From positions 1 through 63,502 of IMG/VR virus record IMGVR_UViG_3300037189_010748: 63,502 nucleotides of DNA; one strand, 5' to 3'. The notes beneath the pieces are model-generated. The model was not told the DNA's origin, did not search any database, and saw only the letters and a list, made by a program, of their open reading frames with translations. The stretch comes from a virus. The number at the start of each line of letters is the position of its first letter. Positions within the stretch are counted from its first letter, which is position 1. Shown in pieces: positions 2,716 through 48,708 of this stretch. Both the position numbers and the translations under genes were made by a program.

Positions 2716-3343
2716 TGCGCAGGTCAAGCCGATCGTGGCTATTGACCTGGACGGCACCCTGAGTGAGTACCACGGAGCCATCAGCAAGTTCGCTTGCGAC
2801 TACTGGGATGTGCGCCAGCCCATGGTCGCCTGGAACGGCCGTGGCAACATGGAGGATCATCTCGGGCTGACGCAAGCTCAGTACCGGGAAGCCAAGCTGG
2901 CATATCGCCAGGGCGGATACAAGCGCACGGCCAACTGGCAGCCGGGAGCTCACGAGTTCATGAGCATGCTGGCGTTCGTCGAGGACATCGAGATCTGGAT
3001 CACGACCACCCGCCCCTGGAACCGGCTGGACAGCGTGGACCCGGACACCCGGTTCTGGCTGGACCGCCATCACGTGCGGTACGACCACCTGCTCTACGAC
3101 GATCACAAGTACCACAAGCTGGCCGAGCTGGTGGACCCCTCCAGGGTGATCCTGGTGGTGGAGGACCTCCCCGAGATGATCCGTGAGGCGCTGGAGGTCT
3201 TCAAGCCGGAGGCGGTCGTCCGCATGCACCGGCTGTACAACTGGCAGGTCGGCAACGAGTGCGGCCTGCAACTGTTCAGCAGCCTGAGCAGGGTGTTGCT
3301 GGACAACCTCCGCCTGTGGAAGGAGGGCAAGTGGACCGCATAG
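2693..3343 (+). CDS. HAD-superfamily phosphatase/5'-nucleotidase-like protein
   Basis: HAD motif I is DLDGT at residues 18-22, motif II is probably the ITTTR segment near residue 104, and motif III/IV is VVEDLPE near residue 153. Together these give the aspartate-nucleophile phosphohydrolase fold. Two cysteines near the N-terminus (CSKC) precede motif I. The likely start is GTG at 2693, with GAGGAG upstream. HAD enzymes in phages often act on nucleotides or polynucleotide ends; the neighbouring Nmad1-like and ThyX genes favour nucleotide metabolism. Substrate is not determined. Confidence 0.75.
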   Translation: MSLCSKCSAQVKPIVAIDLDGTLSEYHGAISKFACDYWDVRQPMVAWNGRGNMEDHLGLTQAQYREAKLAYRQGGYKRTANWQPGAHEFMSMLAFVEDIEIWITTTRPWNRLDSVDPDTRFWLDRHHVRYDHLLYDDHKYHKLAELVDPSRVILVVEDLPEMIREALEVFKPEAVVRMHRLYNWQVGNECGLQLFSSLSRVLLDNLRLWKEGKWTA

Positions 3344-3762: not shown

Positions 3763-6700
3763 GTCCCTAGGAGCCAGTCAGGTCAAGCTGAACCTGAAGA
3801 GTCGTACCGGCGTCAAGCTTGGCCACGACTGCGAAAGCGACGGGCGCAAGGGCAAGAAGATCACCAACGAGGAGCCTGGCAAGCTCGATCGCAAGGGCGT
3901 GGATCACTACGTCAGCTTGCACCATCACAGCACGTACAGCTTCCTCGATGGATTCGCCCTCCCGGATGCACATGTGCGCCGTGCCGAGGAGCTGGGCATG
4001 CAAGCTCTTGCCCTCACCGAGCACGGCAACATCAGCAGCCACGTCAAGCTGGAACAGGCTGCGGTCAAGACCGGGGTCAAGCCGATCTTCGGTTGCGAGG
4101 TGTACATGGGTGAGGTGGGCGAGCAGCGCACCCAGCGCAAGAACCACCTCACGGTCCTGGCAACTGACCTGAACGGTTATCAGAACTTGATGCGCCTGGT
4201 CAGCCGGGGGTGGGAGCAGTTCTACTACGAGCCGACCGTCAGCTTCGAGGACCTAGAGGAGTTCAACCAAGGGCTCATCGTCCTGAGCGGGTGCACCGGC
4301 AGCCTGATGAGCACAAGCATGGTCGGTGGCAAGAACGTAGCCCCGGAGGACGCCAGCCTCAGACGGGCCAAGGCCGTGGCCAAGAAGTTCAAGCGTGTGT
4401 TCGGCGACAGGTACTACCTGGAGACCCAAGCCTTCCCCGAGCTGGAGAACGTGTGTCAGATCAATCAGGGGTTGGCGGTCCTCAGCAAGGAGCTCGAGAT
4501 TCCGTTGGTTGCCACGGGTGACGTCCACTACATCCGGCCGTCCGAGCAGGAGATGCAGCAGATCCTCCACAACGTTCGTGGTGGTAACAGGAAGACCCTG
4601 GAGGAGCAGGCCCGTGACTGGGGCTACGACATCAAGCTGTGCCCGCCCACCAGTGACCGCTACATCTACAGGCGGCTCCGGGCTACCGGGCTGAGCAAGC
4701 CTCAGGCGTGGGCTGCCGTGCACGCCACGGAGGAGATCGCCAACCGCTGCAACGTGACCCTGCCCAAGATGCCCATGGTGGAGTTCCCAGTGCCATACGG
4801 CTACGAGGACAGCCTCGACGTGTGGCGGCGCTGGATTGAGGACGGGTGGCGCTTCCGCAATGTGGCTGACCGTGACGACGTGGCCGAGTACAAGGCCCGC
4901 CTCCGGCACGAGATGAAGGTCATCGAGGACAAGAACTTCATCGACTACTTCCTCATCGTGAGCGACGTCGTCAAGTTCGCCAAAGACAACGGCATCCCGG
5001 TTGGACCCGCCCGTGGTAGTGCGGCCGCAAGCCTGGTGTGCTACCTGTTGCGCATCACCGAGGTTGACCCGCTGGCTTTCCCGAACCTGCTGTTCGAGCG
5101 GTTCATTGACCCGACCCGCAAGGACCTGCCCGACGTCGATCTGGACTTCGACGATACACGTCGCCATGAGATCCGTAGCTACCTCGTCAGCAAGTACGGC
5201 GAGGAATGTGTGGGCAACATCGGAACGTTCACCACGTACAAGTCCAAGCTGAGCCTTGATGACGTGGCCCGTGTGTACCGCATCCCCAAGGCTGACGTGG
5301 AGTCGGTCAAGGAACTCCTCATCGAGCGCAGCAGTGGTGACCTCCGTGCCAACGCCACCATCGCCGACACCGTGGATCAGTTCGAGGTTGCGGCGGATGT
5401 GTTCAGGCGATACCCTCAGTTGGCAGCGGCCGTCAAGCTGGAAGGCCAGGTCAAGGGCATGGGCGTGCATGCGGCGGGGCTGGTGGTGGCCAGCGGCCCG
5501 CTGACGGACGCCGCAGCCATGTACAGCCGCCACGTAGCCGGGCGTGACGTGCGGGTACTCAGCGTGGACAAGTACGACGCAGAGCACCTCAACATCCTGA
5601 AGATCGACGTGCTCGGCCTTACCACCCTGGGCATGATCAGCAACTGCCTGGGGCTGATCGGCAAGCCGTTGAGCTGGCTGTACGAGATCCCCCTGGACGA
5701 CCCCGAGACCATCAGGGGCTTCCAGGCCAATGACGTGGTGGGCATCTTCCAGTTTGATGGCCGTGCCATGCGTGGCGTGACGGCAGAGCTCAAGCCGGAC
5801 AACTTCCTGGAGGTGTGCGACATCACCGCCCTGGCACGGCCGGGTCCGCTGCACAACGGTGCCGCCGCTGAGTACATCGACGTCAAGCGTGGGCGCAAGA
5901 CGCCCCGGCAGTACCACCCCCTGGTGGAAGACATCGTGAGCTACACACACGGGCAGATCGTCTACCAGGAGCAGATCCTTCGTATCACTGGCGAGGTCGG
6001 CGGGTTTGACCACGTCCACCGTGCCACCATCCGCAAGATCATCAGCAAGAAGCTGGGCGAGCAGGAGTTCAACAGGTGGTGGGAGCAGTTCCGTGACGGT
6101 GCCAAGGAGCGTGGCGTCCCCGAGGCCGAGGCCAAGGCCATCTGGAATGCGTGCATCACCGCTGGGTCTTATGCGTTCAACGTGGCTCACGCTACGAGCT
6201 ACGGAATGCTGGCGTGGTGGACCATGTACCTCAAGCGCCACCACCCGCTGGAGTTCTATGCGGCGAGCCTCCGGGCATACGGCAACGACAAGCAGCTCGA
6301 ACTCCTGCGTGACGCTGAGCGCCATGGCATCAAGGCGTTGCCTCCACACCCCGCCCGCAGTGACGCTCAGTGGAAGCCTGGCAAGAAGAAGCTGATCGCA
6401 GGGCTGAGTCAGATCAAGGGCATCGGTGACGCCACCAGTGCCAAGATCATCGAGTACCGGGAGGCCCTGGACCGGCCGATGACGTGGGAGGACCTCACCA
6501 AGATCAAGGGCATCGGCCCCAAGACCTACGACTCCATCGTTCAGTTCTGCAACATGGAGGACCCCTTCGAGATCCACAAGCTCGAGAAGAAGGTCACGGA
6601 GGTCAAGGCTGCCATCCGGAAGATGGGTCCGTTCACTGACATCCCGTGGCCAAGCCACCGCAGCATCGACGTGCCGTACAGCCGTGAGACCCGGAACACG

Positions 6701-10880: not shown

Positions 10881-11992
10881 CGCCGCCTCCTCAGGGTTCC
10901 GGTCATGGTACTCATGGACATGTCGACGGTCAGGCGCTGCACGCTGTAGCGGCCGGTCCCGTCGATCTCTTCGGCAACGGCTTCGATGACGTCTCCGACT
11001 TCCAGGCGAGGGTCTCGCAAGCTGCCGAAGTCTACGGTCTCGGCCACACCCCGGATGCGGTTCAGCTCTGCACGGGCGATTGACGTGCACTGAGCTTCAC
11101 TGGTGGCCAGGCCATCCGTGATTGTCTTGGGACGCCTACCCAGGGGACCCAGGTAATACGTTCTACTTGTGGGATCGTTGTCCCACACGGTGGCCCCCAC
11201 TGGGAATAGCAGCCACGGGACCTCGCTACGGCAGGTGACCCCGGTGAACAGCTCCCGGCGAGACGTATTGATGCTCGGGGGCTTGATGTTCACACCGAAC
11301 TCTCCGGCACCGAGGGTCCAGACCGCCTCCTTGCTGTCCGGGTCAACGATCTCCTTGGAGGTCAGCCAGCCGTACCGATCGAAGTACAGCTCTGAACTGT
11401 CCGCCTGGGCCAGCTTGACGGCTGCCTGCCACGGGTCGTCAGCCTCGCTGAAGAACAGGTTCGGCGTTGTGTTGGCGATCGCCGTCTGGAGGTCGTACAC
11501 GGGGGTGAACCCTGTGGCCCGGCTGTTGATGATGTTGCGGATGCCCGTGACGTTGGGCGTCCCGATCTCTACCTGGAAGGGTACCTCCCACGGGTTGCCG
11601 CTGATGCGCTCACTCCTATCCAAGCAGGAGCAGGTGTACGTCACCATGCCACCGTTGGCGCTGCGGTCCAGCTCCACGATCCCAACGATGCCCATCGGGA
11701 TCCACTCCCACTCGCCATCCACCAGCGCCCCGATGTACGGTGCGACCTCAGCGTTGGCCATGGGGTCCAGCATCTCCAGGGCGCTCTTCTTGCCGATCAT
11801 CGTGAGGTCGGCTTGCATGCGAGCGTCACCTTCACGGTCGTAGGTGACCTGGCTGCTATCGGCAAGCAGGCGGAGGTCGTCACCGTAGAACGTGTCCGTC
11901 ACCACGTCGCCGTTGATGATGACGGCTGCTCTGGCCGCAAACTGGCCACCGTACTTCACCAGCTCTCCGAAACGTTCGCTGCTCTGGATCAT
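10877..11992 (-). CDS. Minor tail protein, baseplate-hub type (DUF5047-like)
   Basis: The 371-aa product resembles the DUF5047 group of actinophage tail proteins, which are related to gp27-like baseplate hub proteins. An N-terminal beta domain contains VTYDREGDARMQADLTMIG, a middle domain contains YDLQTAIANTTPNLFFSE, and the C-terminal domain ends with a run of arginines. It follows the tape measure and the FN3-type tail protein, where the tail tip hub is expected. TGATG overlap with the upstream gene. Confidence 0.7.
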   Translation of the reverse strand: MIQSSERFGELVKYGGQFAARAAVIINGDVVTDTFYGDDLRLLADSSQVTYDREGDARMQADLTMIGKKSALEMLDPMANAEVAPYIGALVDGEWEWIPMGIVGIVELDRSANGGMVTYTCSCLDRSERISGNPWEVPFQVEIGTPNVTGIRNIINSRATGFTPVYDLQTAIANTTPNLFFSEADDPWQAAVKLAQADSSELYFDRYGWLTSKEIVDPDSKEAVWTLGAGEFGVNIKPPSINTSRRELFTGVTCRSEVPWLLFPVGATVWDNDPTSRTYYLGPLGRRPKTITDGLATSEAQCTSIARAELNRIRGVAETVDFGSLRDPRLEVGDVIEAVAEEIDGTGRYSVQRLTVDMSMSTMTGTLRRRR

Positions 11993-27957: not shown

Positions 27958-28049
27958 CTTCTTCTCCTGTGTTTGCCCCTTGCGTGGGGAACCTCCCTCA
28001 TCGGGCGGATGAGCGCAGGATAGCAGACGGTGACCTCACTTGTGCAACA

Positions 28050-39400: not shown

Positions 39401-39834
39401 CCGCTGAGGCCACCGCCCCCGCCTCCACCACCGGGAATGGTCACGGTCACTTCACCACTGCCTGCGTTGGCAACGCTCACTCCGGCCCCGACGAAGTTGA
39501 TTGCCGATGCAGTCAGAAGCGTGGTGGCTCCCTCGTCCTCGACGCGAATGGTGGTGCTGCCACCAACGCCGATGCCGCTCTTCAGCTCAGCCAGCACGGC
39601 CTGGACTGTGGTGCCCGTCACACCTGCGATGGCATTCACACTGATGCTGCTGGCCGGGTGTGCACCGTCGGCGTCGGCAAGGTGGGCGTTCAGGCCGCTG
39701 AGGTCAGCGCCACCACTGGTGCCACTGTCGAGCTGCCATCCACGCTGTTGCCAGTATGTGACGAAGCTCTCGTACTTGACCTGAGCCTTGAGACTTGGAT
39801 TGTTGGGGTGTGTCATGAACACTGAGGACGGCAT
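36475..39834 (-). CDS. Tail/fibre protein with tandem fibronectin type III domains
   Basis: A 1119-aa protein. The N-terminus carries the MTHPN ... YESFVTYWQQRGW module shared with the small protein at 19846-20079. Gly-rich beta repeats with TIRVEDEG and GIRVEDETLTVQSL follow at about 80-200. At least four FN3 domains occupy about 390-830 (for example NWYRVRAHNAAG, AYRVRIAAENEAG, NYSARVRAINSVG). A jelly-roll-like region and another FN3-type domain end the protein. A probable adhesion protein. GGAGGA precedes ATG 39834. Confidence 0.75.
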   Translation of the reverse strand: MPSSVFMTHPNNPSLKAQVKYESFVTYWQQRGWQLDSGTSGGADLSGLNAHLADADGAHPASSISVNAIAGVTGTTVQAVLAELKSGIGVGGSTTIRVEDEGATTLLTASAINFVGAGVSVANAGSGEVTVTIPGGGGGGGGLSGIRVEDETLTVQSLATAINFSGSGVTVTDAGAGEVLVTIPGATGGGTMTDPQVETAYNNRVAVATQGDAEGGTGTTVLRWTPQRIAQAVAALAGSANTLAQNFPESFAVRLGGPADIILGDPANAKDGFPLPYAMTIEEILIGQSATAASITTCDVHVGGGGGTSILGAGKVTVPIGQTFGTTSAFTTGASYAANKGDYISVYADSLASTVRNLTLWVIGKRNVGNVTPPTNPGTPSMLSVPRNLGGLTPQWQPGSSGNSTIDYYELQVSTDNTNWTVLQAQLGAVQYQHGPIANGVTNWYRVRAHNAAGLWSNYSSSLSGTAGDVPGGAPTSLASTGVLSNQFGVTWVAPTGTANTGGLPILSYYIEVGPVNGGTSTITASGSVAATPTSRTFTFWDFFNQGTTTIQPSTAYRVRIAAENEAGIGPFATLDVTTAASGGGTPAPLAPTALVQDVAASGATTINYDWSLPTDANRTGVDVEWKQSTQTYGNTPVSNAAGTTTFTPALFRDALWDFRVRTTGPGGQSAWVDLFNKQCRQTPSAPRTLAAGTPTATGVTLTWVAPQFAGATNDITGYYVEWDQQADNFASPIGNSGVLGNVLTYTIANLPTPATNYSARVRAINSVGSDTYASVSFTTAAGAAGGLGDGLQLVPHIGEFTANGMKTVSSSNATWATAAAGSGLTLLLGASFNGTAILSGGVYTVTQTFMQWDTTLAAGKEIKAAWLEFDEEDTDFTDVIPAGNNHDLTVVLMPYDYGDNPPTTADFRSNTQLAALNRGAELKFNRGATWPSGFGQPIIAQDGLATVNQFRDVLNPAGISKFVIASNDQITNVAPGAGSSNLTIPQPTAGCKIAMIVGPAGGAMPTPVDPAPVTLIDTVGDDGFVTAYWSVPYDGTSASGGSAITGYDVRYKANTAATWTQASYTNAQLNGNAFNKNITLGGGGLAYQEYMIQVRAKTASRTAKWSAVGYGTSAFSPG

Positions 39835-45386: not shown

Positions 45387-46127
45387 ATGAACAACACCAC
45401 CACTTCCATCTTCGCCACCGAGGACACCCCTGCGGCGGAAGTCAGCGCACTGATCGCGGCAACGCTCGAAGTGTGCACCTCCGCCGGGGACGAACTGAAG
45501 TGGGCCGAGCTCAGCTCGGTCTGCCCCAGCATCAAGTACTCGCGTGGTTGGCTGATCGCCCGTCGGGCTCAGCTGGAAGAGTACGCGCCGGAACTCCTGA
45601 CCCGGCTGGTCAAGGCCAGCAAGGGCAGCGAGGAGCGGTACGCACACGCCAAGAAGTTCCACGCAGCACGGCTGGGCACGAAGCTCAGCTGGGGTGAGCT
45701 GGCCGTGCGCTTCGGCGTGAGCGAGAGCTACGTCCGCGAGTGCTTCAAGCTCGCGGGTGTGGAGAAGGACCTGGGCCTGCGGATCGGCAAGGGCGGACGC
45801 TTCGCCTACGGTGATCCCACCCTGTACCTGGAGAACCGCAAGGCCGAGGGAGCTCAGATCCCCGTGGAGCTCAAGGGCCGTCCGGCCGTGGAGCAGCTCC
45901 TCAACTTCAAGGCCGACCGTACCATGAGCACCGCCGCTCAGAAGGGCAAGGCCATGAGCACGATCGTCAAGCTGCAGAACCTGCGTCAGGACAAGGCCAC
46001 TCCGGCCGAGCAGCACGACGCCATCGACGAGAAGATCGCCGACCTGATGAACAAGCACAACATCACGGTCGCCGACCTCGGGGCCTGGAAGGCAGCTCGG
46101 GCCAGCAAGGGCCGCAAGGCGAGCTGA
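45387..46127 (+). CDS. Helix-turn-helix DNA-binding protein with RIGKGGR motif
   Basis: A 246-aa protein. The N-terminal region has two helix-turn-helix-like units; the clearest is KLSWGELAVRFGVSESYVRE (residues about 98-117). GLRIGKGGRFAYGDPTLYL follows and then a helical C-terminus. The protein at 56048-56704 shares the LSW...ARxG unit and the RIGKGGR motif. As the first gene after the repeat region it is a good candidate to bind those repeats, as origin-binding protein or repressor; that is inference. AAAGGAG precedes ATG 45387. Confidence 0.7.
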   Translation: MNNTTTSIFATEDTPAAEVSALIAATLEVCTSAGDELKWAELSSVCPSIKYSRGWLIARRAQLEEYAPELLTRLVKASKGSEERYAHAKKFHAARLGTKLSWGELAVRFGVSESYVRECFKLAGVEKDLGLRIGKGGRFAYGDPTLYLENRKAEGAQIPVELKGRPAVEQLLNFKADRTMSTAAQKGKAMSTIVKLQNLRQDKATPAEQHDAIDEKIADLMNKHNITVADLGAWKAARASKGRKAS

Positions 46128-46149
46128 AGCAAGGCAAGGCAAGGGGTTC

Positions 46150-46190
46150 GGGGGTACGGCATGCACAGGGGTTCGAGCCCCCTGCCCCCA
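46150..46190 (+). ncRNA. Miniature tRNA-like element 1 (acceptor stem plus T-arm)
   Basis: 5' strand GGGGGT (46150-46155) pairs with GCCCCC (46184-46189) as a 6-bp acceptor-like stem. The T-arm is AGGGG / TTCGAGC loop / CCCCT (46167-46183), and a single A follows like a discriminator base. The 11-base linker ACGGCATGCAC replaces the D- and anticodon arms. A CCACCC/GGGTGG hairpin follows at 46195-46210. It lies between a stop codon (46127) and the next Shine-Dalgarno-led gene (46226). Confidence 0.6.
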
Positions 46191-46225
46191 CGATCCACCC
46201 TCCTGGGTGGGCAGCAAGGAGCCAC

Positions 46226-46375
46226 ATGTCAAAGGGAAGCAAGTTCCTGCTGTGCCTGCTGTGCACAGCACTCATCATCCAGATGATGGTGTTCTGGCAC
46301 CTGAGCCGTGATCCGATGTTTCTTTGGATCGCTGGAGGGATGCTCAGTACACTGGTGTTCGGTGTCGCCTGGTGA
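46226..46375 (+). CDS. 49-aa membrane protein
   Basis: AAGGAGCCAC precedes ATG 46226. The product has two hydrophobic segments (FLLCLLCTALIIQMMVFW and FLWIAGGMLSTLVFGVAW) and no soluble domain. GTGA overlap with the next gene. Small membrane peptides like this recur in the right arm; function unknown. Confidence 0.65.
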   Translation: MSKGSKFLLCLLCTALIIQMMVFWHLSRDPMFLWIAGGMLSTLVFGVAW

Positions 46376-46617
46376 ACATCAACACGATGCAGGCTCACCG
46401 TCTGCGAGCACAAGTACGCCGAGCCAGCCTCAAGCTGGATGCGCTGCATGCACAACGCACGAGGCAGGCTCATGCAGTACGGGGCACGTCGCCTTCCACC
46501 GTCAGGAAGCGGGCTCAACTGTTCAACGCTGCTGAGCGCCTCCGCTTGAGGCAGGCTCAGGCATGGTCGTTCTACATGAGCGCCGATGCTGCGTACGAAG
46601 AGGTTCGGAGGGGGTAG
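46372..46617 (+). CDS. Basic helical hypothetical protein
   Basis: An 81-aa Arg/Ala-rich, helical protein from GTG 46372 (GTGA overlap); ATG 46387 is an alternative start. The stop codon TAG sits in the loop of a GGGGG/CCCCC hairpin. No family recognised. Confidence 0.6.
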   Translation: MNINTMQAHRLRAQVRRASLKLDALHAQRTRQAHAVRGTSPSTVRKRAQLFNAAERLRLRQAQAWSFYMSADAAYEEVRRG

Positions 46618-46633
46618 CCCCCGAATTCGGCTC

Positions 46634-46655
46634 AGGGGGAGAGGAGCCACCCCCT
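46634..46655 (+). terminator. Hairpin downstream of the small basic gene
   Basis: AGGGGG (46634-46639) pairs with CCCCCT (46650-46655) across a 10-base loop. An AT-rich stretch (TAATATTTGAG) follows, so it may be a terminator. TAATAT at 46658-46663 could also be a -10 for the next gene. Confidence 0.4.
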
Positions 46656-46694
46656 CCTAATATTTGAGAACCCACCAACCCGAAAGGAACTGAA

Positions 46695-46895
46695 ATGAGG
46701 GAATCTCTCTTGAAGACCATCACCTGCACCCCGGACGAACTGCTCCCCGGCGACATCGTCCACGACCACGACGACAAGCTCGTGCTCAACGTGGAAGTCG
46801 ACGAAGACAGCACCGTGGCCACCATCCGCTGGATGGGAACCGAAGTGCGCAGCCACGCCGGTATCCGAGCCCAGCTCACCGTCAGCCGCCGCTGA
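46695..46895 (+). CDS. Small acidic beta-rich hypothetical protein
   Basis: A 66-aa product (ELLPGDIVHDHDDKLVLNVE ... GTEVRSHAGIRAQLTV) with the look of a small beta-barrel. GAAAGGAA precedes ATG 46695. Coupled by TGATG to the next peptide. Confidence 0.65.
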   Translation: MRESLLKTITCTPDELLPGDIVHDHDDKLVLNVEVDEDSTVATIRWMGTEVRSHAGIRAQLTVSRR

Positions 46896-46996
46896 TGAGA
46901 CCGGCCGATCCCAACCGACGCCAGCCCTCCCGGATGAAGGGCTCAGGCCGCCATCACCCCAACCACGGCAGCAAGAAGCCCAAGTCCAAGAAGTAA
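46895..46996 (+). CDS. 33-aa very basic peptide
   Basis: ATG 46895 overlaps the previous stop (TGATG). The peptide is rich in Arg, Lys, His and Pro and ends in KKPKSKK. Short basic peptides can bind RNA or host proteins; translation is inferred only from the coupling. Confidence 0.45.
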   Translation: MRPADPNRRQPSRMKGSGRHHPNHGSKKPKSKK

Positions 46997-47040
46997 CACC
47001 CGCTAGCGTGAACCCACCACCAACCAGTAAAGTAGGAGCC

Positions 47041-47304
47041 ATGCAAACACTGCTCAACCCAACCACCTTCGTGGTGGCCGTATCCGAAGACAACAGGGGC
47101 TTCGAGTTCCAGATCGGTGTGTACAGCAGCACCCGACGGGATCACGACCAGTACGAAGGCCACCTGGCCATCTGGGTCGGTGATCCGGGGTACTACATCC
47201 TCGACGGCGAGGAACAGGCACAGTTCTTGCGTGAACTGGCCCCGCTGCTCACCGGCCGTGGCCCCACCCAGGACGAACTAGACGAGGAAGCCAGCCTCGC
47301 ATGA
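47041..47304 (+). CDS. Small hypothetical protein
   Basis: An 87-aa alpha/beta product (TTFVVAVSEDNRGFEFQIG, HLAIWVGDPGYYILDG). GTAGGAGCC stands just before ATG 47041. Tail end acidic. ATGA overlap with the following 30-aa peptide. Confidence 0.65.
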   Translation: MQTLLNPTTFVVAVSEDNRGFEFQIGVYSSTRRDHDQYEGHLAIWVGDPGYYILDGEEQAQFLRELAPLLTGRGPTQDELDEEASLA

Positions 47305-47393
47305 CCAGGGCCATCCTGAAGACCATCGCCACGGTTGCCGCACTGGCTCCCTTGGCCGCCCTCACCGCCTACCTGGCAGGTTCACGCAAGTAG
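47301..47393 (+). CDS. 30-aa membrane peptide
   Basis: ATG 47301 overlaps the previous stop (ATGA). The peptide is almost one hydrophobic helix (ATVAALAPLAALTAYLAG) flanked by basic residues. Its TAG stop is 3 bases before tRNA-like element 2. Confidence 0.55.
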   Translation: MTRAILKTIATVAALAPLAALTAYLAGSRK

Positions 47394-47396
47394 CCT

Positions 47397-47445
47397 GCCC
47401 GCCCGAACGGCATACACCCAGGGTTCGAGTCCCTGGCGGGCACCA
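47397..47445 (+). ncRNA. Miniature tRNA-like element 2, with encoded CCA
   Basis: GCCCGC (47397-47402) pairs perfectly with GCGGGC (47436-47441); one more T-A pair is possible at the outside. The T-arm is CAGGG / TTCGAGT / CCCTG (47419-47435). A (47442) and then CCA (47443-47445) follow, as in a mature tRNA 3' end. The 16-base linker includes ACGGCATACAC. A 7-bp hairpin ACCGTGG/CCACGGT (47445-47463) comes next, then AAGGAGCCA and the next gene. The regular D-arm and anticodon arm are absent. Confidence 0.65.
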
Positions 47446-47477
47446 CCGTGGAGCCACCACGGTAGCAAGGAGCCAAC

Positions 47478-47963
47478 ATGACACCCGAACAGATCATCCA
47501 CGACGAGGATGCCTACCTCAACTGGCCGTTCCCGCACGGCCCCTGGGGTTGGAACCCCGACGGCACCAGCCTCGCCCCCACGGCGGAACTGCGAGCGGCG
47601 CACATCGCCTGGTACCACGACGTGAAGGAGGGCATCACCACCAGCACCGAGTGGATCGCCATCCAGGACGCCATCAAGGCGTTCAAGTTGAGCGGCATCG
47701 GCGGTGCCGGAACGCCCATCGACCCCGAGATCGTACTGGCCTTGCTGATCGAGGAGATCAGCACCATCTACGACGTGGATCTGCACGCCATGGCCCAGCA
47801 AGCCGAAGACGAACAGCAGATCCACCTGCACGCTGCCCTCGCCGCCCTGCGAGCCGTCGACGGTGAAGCGTCCGACCAGTACCGCCGCATCGAGGCTGCC
47901 TACGCAGCCACCTTCCAGGACAACGAGGCCATGGACCACTACGACCGGAACCTGGGCACCTGA
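47478..47963 (+). CDS. Hypothetical protein
   Basis: A 161-aa acidic protein. The N-terminal part is Trp/Pro-rich (NWPFPHGPWGWNPDG) and the rest helical. AAGGAGCCA precedes ATG 47478; TGATG overlap downstream. No family recognised. Confidence 0.7.
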   Translation: MTPEQIIHDEDAYLNWPFPHGPWGWNPDGTSLAPTAELRAAHIAWYHDVKEGITTSTEWIAIQDAIKAFKLSGIGGAGTPIDPEIVLALLIEEISTIYDVDLHAMAQQAEDEQQIHLHAALAALRAVDGEASDQYRRIEAAYAATFQDNEAMDHYDRNLGT

Positions 47964-48184
47964 TGGCCAAGCGACGAACCTTCAGCGCAGTGATCAAGGA
48001 CTGCGAGATGCAGGAAGTGCCCGCCAACGATCACGACAAGGCCAGGGGCATCCACAACGAGGAAGGCATGGTGCGCCTGCTGGTCGGCACCGCCTTCCAC
48101 CCCAACGGAACCGAGTTCGACTTCGAGTTCAAGTTCCACGTGGACGGCGACCTGGATCAGTACTTCCTGCCAGACCCCCGCTAG
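47963..48184 (+). CDS. Small hypothetical protein
   Basis: A 73-aa product with a basic start and an acidic beta-rich end (FDFEFKFHVDGDLDQYFL). Coupled to the preceding gene by TGATG. Last gene before tRNA-like element 3. Confidence 0.65.
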   Translation: MAKRRTFSAVIKDCEMQEVPANDHDKARGIHNEEGMVRLLVGTAFHPNGTEFDFEFKFHVDGDLDQYFLPDPR

Positions 48185-48204
48185 CACGAACACCGCCGGT
48201 GTAC

Positions 48205-48210
48205 TACACT
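48205..48210 (+). promoter_or_regulatory. Candidate -10 element at the start of tRNA-like element 3
   Basis: TACACT within GTGTACTACACTGG, close to GTGTGCTACGCTGG of the 43841 promoter. The hexamer 17 bases upstream (TAGCAC) is a weak -35. A transcript would start near 48217, at the first bases of tRNA-like element 3. Confidence 0.4.
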
Positions 48211-48215
48211 GGCAC

Positions 48216-48256
48216 GAGCGAAAGGAATACACCCCGGTTCGAGTCCGGGGCGCTCA
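48216..48256 (+). ncRNA. Miniature tRNA-like element 3
   Basis: GAGCGA (48216-48221) pairs with GCGCTC (48250-48255) over 5 of 6 positions. The T-arm is CCCGG / TTCGAGT / CCGGG (48233-48249), followed by A. The 11-base linker is AAGGAATACAC. Size and plan (41 nt) equal element 1. A copy of the ACGGCATAC linker motif follows immediately after the element. The next gene starts at 48286 after ACAAGGAGCCACC. Confidence 0.55.
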
Positions 48257-48285
48257 CGGCATACCCACCAACACAAGGAGCCACC

Positions 48286-48708
48286 ATGCCAACCGAAACC
48301 GACGAGATCCTCGGCTACGATGCCGACCACGACGATCCCCGGCAGTATTGCCCACACGGAGCCTTCATCGGCTCGTGGTGGGGGCCGGACTACCTCTGCG
48401 GCGCATGCGAACAGGGCATCAGCGCAGCCGCCTACCGCTACAGCGGGATCCAGCGCAACATCTTCGCCTGGGAGGACCGGCTGGGCTGGTTCTGCCGCCT
48501 GGCCGACAACACGGCCGAAGTTGTCGAGCACAAGAGCCCGACCTACCGGAACTGGTTCCGCAACATCGTCGTCGACCTGGTCCTCACCAAGTACGACGAA
48601 TCCATGGCCATCATGCACCAGATCAACCTGGCCCACGGCCAACTGGTCTACTTCTGGCTCGACCACCCGGACTTCGACCCCGACGACGAGAGCCAGTGGG
48701 GCTACTGA
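48286..48708 (+). CDS. Cys/His-containing hypothetical protein
   Basis: A 140-aa product. The N-terminal 45 residues have a possible zinc site (YCPHGAFIG, CGACEQG). A Trp- and Tyr-rich helical part follows. AAGGAGCCA precedes ATG 48286; TGATG overlap with the next gene. Confidence 0.7.
   Translation: MPTETDEILGYDADHDDPRQYCPHGAFIGSWWGPDYLCGACEQGISAAAYRYSGIQRNIFAWEDRLGWFCRLADNTAEVVEHKSPTYRNWFRNIVVDLVLTKYDESMAIMHQINLAHGQLVYFWLDHPDFDPDDESQWGY

Follow-up and report, generated by a model that had tools for sequence, protein, structure and literature searches.

The window examined here is a 63.5-kb virus record from IMG/VR (IMGVR_UViG_3300037189_010748, positions 1 to 63,502), taken at its full length. 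Between the genes of its small-gene operons lie three short elements that an original prediction, made from the sequence alone, had singled out as tRNA-like. They are present where it put them (Table 1), and its view of them as mimics of the tRNA acceptor and T-arm, of phage origin and recurring from gap to gap, holds. They belong to a family with a single fold: a 5-bp acceptor stem, an 11-12-nt linker resembling a D-loop, a 6-bp T-stem, the loop TTCGANY, and then R73-C74. The element resembles a tRNA of which only the acceptor, the T-arm and the elbow are left, and its sites follow one order: stop codon, mini-tRNA, hairpin (usually), Shine-Dalgarno, start.

Table 1. Mini-tRNA elements and adjoining features of the window
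Feature	Position	Strand	Description	Basis
Gene upstream of element 1	45387..46127	+	246 aa; no Pfam match	
Element 1	46150..46191	+	acceptor GGGGG/CCCCC (46150-46154 with 46185-46189); linker TACGGCATGCA (46155-46165); T-stem CAGGGG/CCCCTG; loop TTCGAGC; A73 C74	covariance model, 57.5 bits
Hairpin after element 1	46194..46211	+	UCCACCC UCCU GGGUGGG	RNA fold; position fits family-wide pattern
Leader signals, element 1	46216..46228	+	Shine-Dalgarno AAGGAG (46216-46221); ATG (46226) of 49-aa ORF	
Element 2	47401..47443	+	acceptor GCCCG/CGGGC (47401-47405 with 47437-47441); 12-nt linker AACGGCATACAC; T-stem CCAGGG/CCCTGG; loop TTCGAGT; A73 C74	covariance model, 61.5 bits
Hairpin after element 2	47445..47463	+	ACCGTGG AGCCA CCACGGT	sequence and fold
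Leader signals, element 2	47467..47480	+	Shine-Dalgarno AAGGAG; ATG (47478) of 161-aa ORF	
Gene upstream of element 3	47963..48184	+	73 aa, no family; 31 nt from stop to element	
Element 3	48216..48257	+	acceptor GAGCG/CGCTC; linker AAAGGAATACA; T-stem CCCCGG/CCGGGG; loop TTCGAGT; A73 C74	covariance model, 62.4 bits
Leader signals, element 3	48275..48288	+	Shine-Dalgarno AAGGAG; ATG (48286) of 140-aa ORF	

A covariance model gives the three elements 57.5-62.4 bits and the next-best place in the window 16.7 bits; the model was built with all three of them, and the independent evidence comes from the other copies. The proportions of the fold, first proposed as a 6-bp acceptor and a 5-bp T-arm, are the reverse, and element 2 has two GCCCG runs, of which the second serves as the 5' acceptor strand; the first, four bases further upstream and the one originally chosen, is also able to pair. 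The register taken from the family alignment makes the linker 11 nt long in elements 1 and 3 and 12 nt in element 2, instead of the 11-16 nt at first supposed. The linker is not arbitrary. It has an invariant GG and makes two contacts that covary: linker 2-8, which is A-U in element 1, and linker 9 with loop 60 (G9 with C60 in element 1, A9 with U60 in elements 2 and 3). Element 2 starts 7 nt past a TAG stop (47391-47393) and has CCA encoded at 47443-47445. Between element 3 and its Shine-Dalgarno no hairpin was found, unlike elements 1 and 2. Folding of single sequences is uninformative (z of -0.25 to -1.14, with element 1 misfolded in the minimum-energy model), so that the argument is carried by covariation.

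The neighbouring genes say little. For those flanking the elements, Pfam and PHROGs offer no function beyond one weak PHROG match of the 246-aa gene to a RecE-like exonuclease (E 0.007). A tblastn search with that gene found no match, nor did megablast of 44-52 kb against phage records; relatives of the 161-aa gene were not found in IMG/VR, and the terminase shows distant kinship only (best, Streptomyces phage mu1/6 at 49.8%). Conservation was consequently studied through the motif rather than through synteny. (A side observation: in the stretch 46128-46149, directly before element 1, stands GCAAGGCAAGGCAAGGGG, akin to the GGCAAGGC-like repeats whose degenerate arrays precede the elements of a subset of phages, loci L029, L041, L047, L060 and L085.)

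A pattern made of the linker end and the T-loop (ATACAC N2-6 GGTTCGAGTCC) matched 69 viral stretches, several of them with two or three copies, and their flanks share one plan. Scanning 2.1 Mb of related loci yielded 548 copies, 426 of them non-redundant, where first-order Markov shuffles gave 3; the count shows reality and not abundance, these loci having been fetched for holding the motif. The covariance-model search of actinophage genomes that the original prediction proposed turns up many conserved copies. Unannotated ones are carried by Streptomyces phages of the Arquatrovirinae, by Mycobacterium phages Papyrus, Damien and Cuke, each with relatives, by Gordonia phage Rabbitrun, and by Microbacterium phages Hubbs and ISF9. 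Single records hold 7 (Lika), 8 (Damien), 9 (Sitrop), 10 (phiScoe10), 13 (Papyrus) and 15 copies (the record of locus L004).

What settles the reality of the fold is pairing in copies chosen without stem information. In 53 distinct copies taken by linker and loop sequence only, 264 of 265 acceptor pairs form, while with permuted 3' strands 148 form on average and 175 at most: more than chance is at work. All 341 pair cells of 31 aligned copies are standard, with two-sided changes in 10 of the 11 pairs. When the alignment is enlarged to 118 distinct copies and the two tertiary pairs are added, 99.8% of the cells of 13 pairs are paired and 12 of the 13 show two-sided changes; the covariation score of this alignment, which was fitted to the stems and not to the tertiary pairs, is 0.753, against 0.172 when shuffled and at most 0.132 when slid. 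Every stem pair co-varies except one invariant G-C. The structure is under selection as RNA, as had been argued from the three window copies. Could these be merely decayed tRNA genes or chance hairpins? The T-loop and linker do resemble parts of tRNA, and ARAGORN miscalls tRNA-Arg genes in Sitrop and phiScoe10; next to no weight can be given to this explanation in the face of the excess over shuffles, of perfect pairing despite variable sequence, and of one geometry across unrelated phages.

The elbow is seen in the linker and the T-loop. In a ranking by mutual information over 350 copies, linker 2-8 comes in fourth place and the pair of linker 9 with loop 60 in tenth, amid the stem pairs. The former is CG in 173 copies, AT in 96 and GC in 73 (together 342 of 350), and the latter, among 311 copies, AT in 237, GC in 45 and TT in 27. 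By analogy with tRNA, linker pair 2-8 would be the 15-48 pair, and the linker GG would be G18 G19, contacting positions 55 and 56 of the T-loop. The T-loop invariants T54, T55, C56, R57, A58 and Y60 are kept and G53-C61 is present in 321 of 321 copies; the loop pattern was part of copy selection, G53-C61 was not.

The same 321 copies, picked by linker and loop only, tell which strand folds. Their stems contain 3419 Watson-Crick cells, 63 G-T and 12 A-C (p 2e-9). G-T is a pair in the sense RNA, and A-C corresponds to G-U in the antisense, so that the excess of G-T means that the transcribed sense strand folds; an integron attC-like single-stranded DNA site, folding on the bottom strand, was rejected on the same figures. 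That the elements are nevertheless single-stranded DNA folds serving recombination or the shuffling of gene cassettes, in the manner of attC sites, is suggested by copies standing between small gene cassettes and by neighbouring gaps that are sometimes near-identical (in L004 and in Damien). Selection on the sense strand makes this very improbable, and so does the occurrence of copies in unrelated phages; nor would a T-loop, D-loop contacts, a discriminator and a fixed Shine-Dalgarno distance be expected of such sites.

The family is phage-specific and nearly absent from bacterial chromosomes. At E 1e-4 the model matches 2 of 296 genomes of Actinomycetota and 1 of 198 of Bacteroidota, each count including the genome used as centre; since a genome has dozens of tRNA genes, so few matches mean that the model does not respond to tRNAs of the usual kind. 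When 84,980 species were scanned with a pattern, 8 stretches matched. In Petrimonas (AP018040, locus L079) a single element near 3198-3240 stands immediately ahead of a transposase-like gene that has an integrase core and is itself followed by a gene for a MuB-like ATPase; with these neighbours, the element also occurs in Mu-like prophages of Bacteroidota. Versions with T1-A72, akin to that of Petrimonas, are found in Tenacibaculum (L080, L083) and at loci L007, L028 and L054. (Synechococcus phage S-RIP2 has a tRNA-like half-element at 39619-39647, minus strand, near thymidylate synthase, with a longer stem and a 16-nt linker; its geometry differs from that of the family and it was left out of the counts.)

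How the elements are placed was measured in four annotated phages, Lika, Sitrop, Papyrus and Damien. All 34 copies point with the flanking genes, in the sense orientation, and 32 lie outside annotated genes, the other two overlapping gene starts in Papyrus. The distance from stop codon to element is mostly 6-9 nt and from element to start mostly 34-53 nt. Of 30 gaps, 22 have a hairpin of at least 6 bp between the element and the start, and of the element-free gaps in these phages 5 of 35 have one (p 3e-6); family-wide the figures are 47% and, in shuffles, 6.6%, with the onset usually 3-5 nt past the acceptor strand. In Damien the hairpins vary in sequence between copies and keep their pairing. 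Being tightly tied to the downstream start and to the hairpin, the element is a 5'-leader element. That all copies are sense and keep an almost fixed distance from the downstream gene makes the suggested decoy of host tRNA enzymes, acting in trans, unlikely. The D-loop-like contacts of the linker, the downstream hairpin, the association with 5' leaders and the spread beyond actinophages were not part of the original prediction.

Several observations in these phages stand somewhat apart. In the Damien gap after 22541 there is a linker-less version (GCCCC C GGCGGG TTCGACT CCCGTC A GGGGC, then a hairpin), which is possibly a further reduced relative. Several gaps of Lika contain a repeated TNNNACCTTCGCA motif that resembles an extended -10 promoter or a stoperator and sometimes lies 6-14 nt before the element; this is suggestive for Lika-type phages only. 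The element at 27972-28011 of Papyrus (L073) covers the annotated start of gene 78, whose start codon is probably annotated too far upstream. ARAGORN calls tRNA-Arg (cct) at 11494-11576, minus strand, of Sitrop (L072, MT701598), where the call is also the deposited annotation and overlaps a mini-tRNA element, and at 4431-4513 of phiScoe10 (L217); both are probably spurious tRNAs.

A canonical tRNA gene does not fit: there is no room for a D- or an anticodon arm, and the stems are 5 and 6 bp long where a 7-bp acceptor and a 5-bp T-stem would be needed; ARAGORN found no tRNA in the window. Rfam at gathering thresholds, with tRNA, tmRNA and mascRNA-menRNA among its families, has no match in the window or in 11 element-holding loci. 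The bases 3' of the stem (A, C, T or G, then G, C or A) are not T-rich, and an intrinsic terminator was rejected.

A mini-tRNA excised by RNase P and RNase Z together, or else ending the upstream message and receiving CCA, was part of what the original prediction envisaged. mascRNA is a tRNA-like RNA released by just these two enzymes, and in Rfam it is what element 2 most resembles (23.4 bits, E 0.1, short of the 42.5 cut-off); moreover, the hairpins begin just past the discriminator. Yet C74, after purine 73, is present in 299 of 311 copies (96%), and this base ranks as the strongest RNase Z anti-determinant (PMC3161902). An RNase Z substrate, that is, a CCA-less pre-tRNA, was rejected as a class for this reason. 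C75 is found in 15 of 311 copies, against 87 of 311 with C at the next position: C75 is avoided and an encoded CCA is rare. Cleavage by RNase Z and capping with CCA accordingly become less likely, and the excision model as a whole is improbable. RNase P cleavage of a polycistron, also among the original proposals, stays plausible.

The reading to which we lean, tentatively and with confidence just short of even, is that the element mimics the tRNA elbow in cis, from the 5' leader of small early phage genes, and that host RNase P is its most likely reader. RNase P cuts hairpins consisting of acceptor, T-stem and T-loop, with G19, G53 and A58 important for binding (PMC11143913). Decay that depends on the 5' end is blocked where that end is structured, as reviewed for 5' protection and RNase J (PMC3997798). 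The coaxial acceptor/T-stem helix with T-loop and elbow contacts that such a substrate needs is found here by covariation, and the elbow invariants, the linker GG, G1-C72 (88% of copies) and C74 after a purine were counted for reading by RNase P. The acceptor and T-stem form a coaxial helix of 11 bp carrying a canonical T-loop, on which the D-loop-like linker docks, rebuilding the elbow. From there we infer the following scheme. Host RNase P would recognize this elbow within the polycistronic transcript and cut just upstream of the element, a few bases past the stop codon of the gene before it. The mini-tRNA, in most cases with a hairpin after it, would thus head the downstream message as a structured end bearing a 5'-monophosphate. 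Such an end may resist 5'-end-dependent decay by RNase E or RNase J, and the small genes of one transcript could thereby be expressed, and could decay, each on its own. With a promoter immediately upstream, the element would itself be the native 5' end.

Some features weigh against this reading: 1) The helix has 11 bp, whereas RNase P measures 12 bp in tRNA (PMC11143913), unless a stacked A-1/A73 mismatch serves as a twelfth layer. 2) The base before the element is A-1 in 74% of copies instead of the usual U-1. 3) With R73-C74 kept and C75 avoided, contact with the 3' RCCA would be partial. 4) Promoter-like motifs stand upstream in some copies only. Greater stability and decoupled expression are effects that the scheme predicts. 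The main alternative is a stable leader structure that is never cleaved and that stabilizes the message, aids downstream translation or modifies transcription elongation; a protein of the phage or of the host might mediate this by reading the elbow. The near-constant distance to the start codon, with a hairpin in between, is what such a leader would show; in those Lika gaps with the promoter-like motif the RNA would start almost at the element; and the single copy in a Bacteroidota Mu-like prophage sits directly before the transposase gene. This is possible but rather doubtful: an uncleaved leader by itself leaves unexplained why tRNA-end features (G1-C72, R73-C74) are retained beside the elbow.

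A published description of the element family was not found, although prior mention in subscription papers is possible, and a large RNA family has apparently gone undescribed so far. A structured RNA that reaches 7-15 copies per genome in the richest cases is apparently unannotated in phages widely used for teaching and research, and recognizing it would correct spurious tRNA-Arg calls and some gene starts. In kind it is a tRNA-like structure; in anatomy, host range and use in operons it is new. With slightly more reserve than attaches to the RNase P reading itself, we suggest a new class of bacterial-virus RNA, a minimal armless mimic of the tRNA elbow, used many times in one phage genome, that would present chosen stretches of polycistronic mRNA to the tRNA enzymes of the host, in the first place RNase P, and would give phages of Actinomycetota and Bacteroidota a tRNA punctuation of operons otherwise known from organelles. 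If RNase P is indeed so directed, bacterial viruses would have a first operon-wide, cis-encoded tRNA-punctuation system, and it would define the minimum of tRNA that recognition needs: 40 nt, in which an 11-nt linker rebuilds the elbow; the elements might also serve as compact parts for setting mRNA ends in actinobacteria.

How do the elements compare with known systems? The stoperators of cluster A mycobacteriophages are likewise repeated, intergenic and in one orientation to transcription (PMC3029335), but they are DNA sites of 13 bp that serve a repressor, and they have no covarying stems. The tRNA-like structures of plant viruses (turnip yellow mosaic virus, TYMV, type) are viral tRNA mimics acting in cis, but stand at the 3' end of an RNA genome, have a pseudoknotted acceptor and are aminoacylated. 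The C4 antisense RNA precursor of phages P1 and P7 is, as cited in PMC11143913, a phage RNA processed by host RNase P; it is a single antisense RNA, not one repeated before genes. Synthetic RNase P substrates of the AT1 type share the domain of acceptor stem, T-stem and T-loop and are cut by bacterial RNase P RNA (PMC11143913), but are artificial, with a 12-bp helix and an RCCA tail and without a D-loop-like linker. mascRNA/menRNA (RF01684) is tRNA-like with reduced arms and is the sole tRNA-like Rfam match of element 2; it is a nuclear RNA of mammals that keeps a cloverleaf remnant, and elements 1 and 3 do not match it. The t-elements of plant mitochondria are tRNA-like folds between the genes of polycistronic transcripts: a sense-oriented fold of this kind between operon genes is precisely what is found here, but t-elements are organellar, different in sequence and not armless, and they set mRNA ends by demonstrated processing, whereas the phage elements are known here from sequence.

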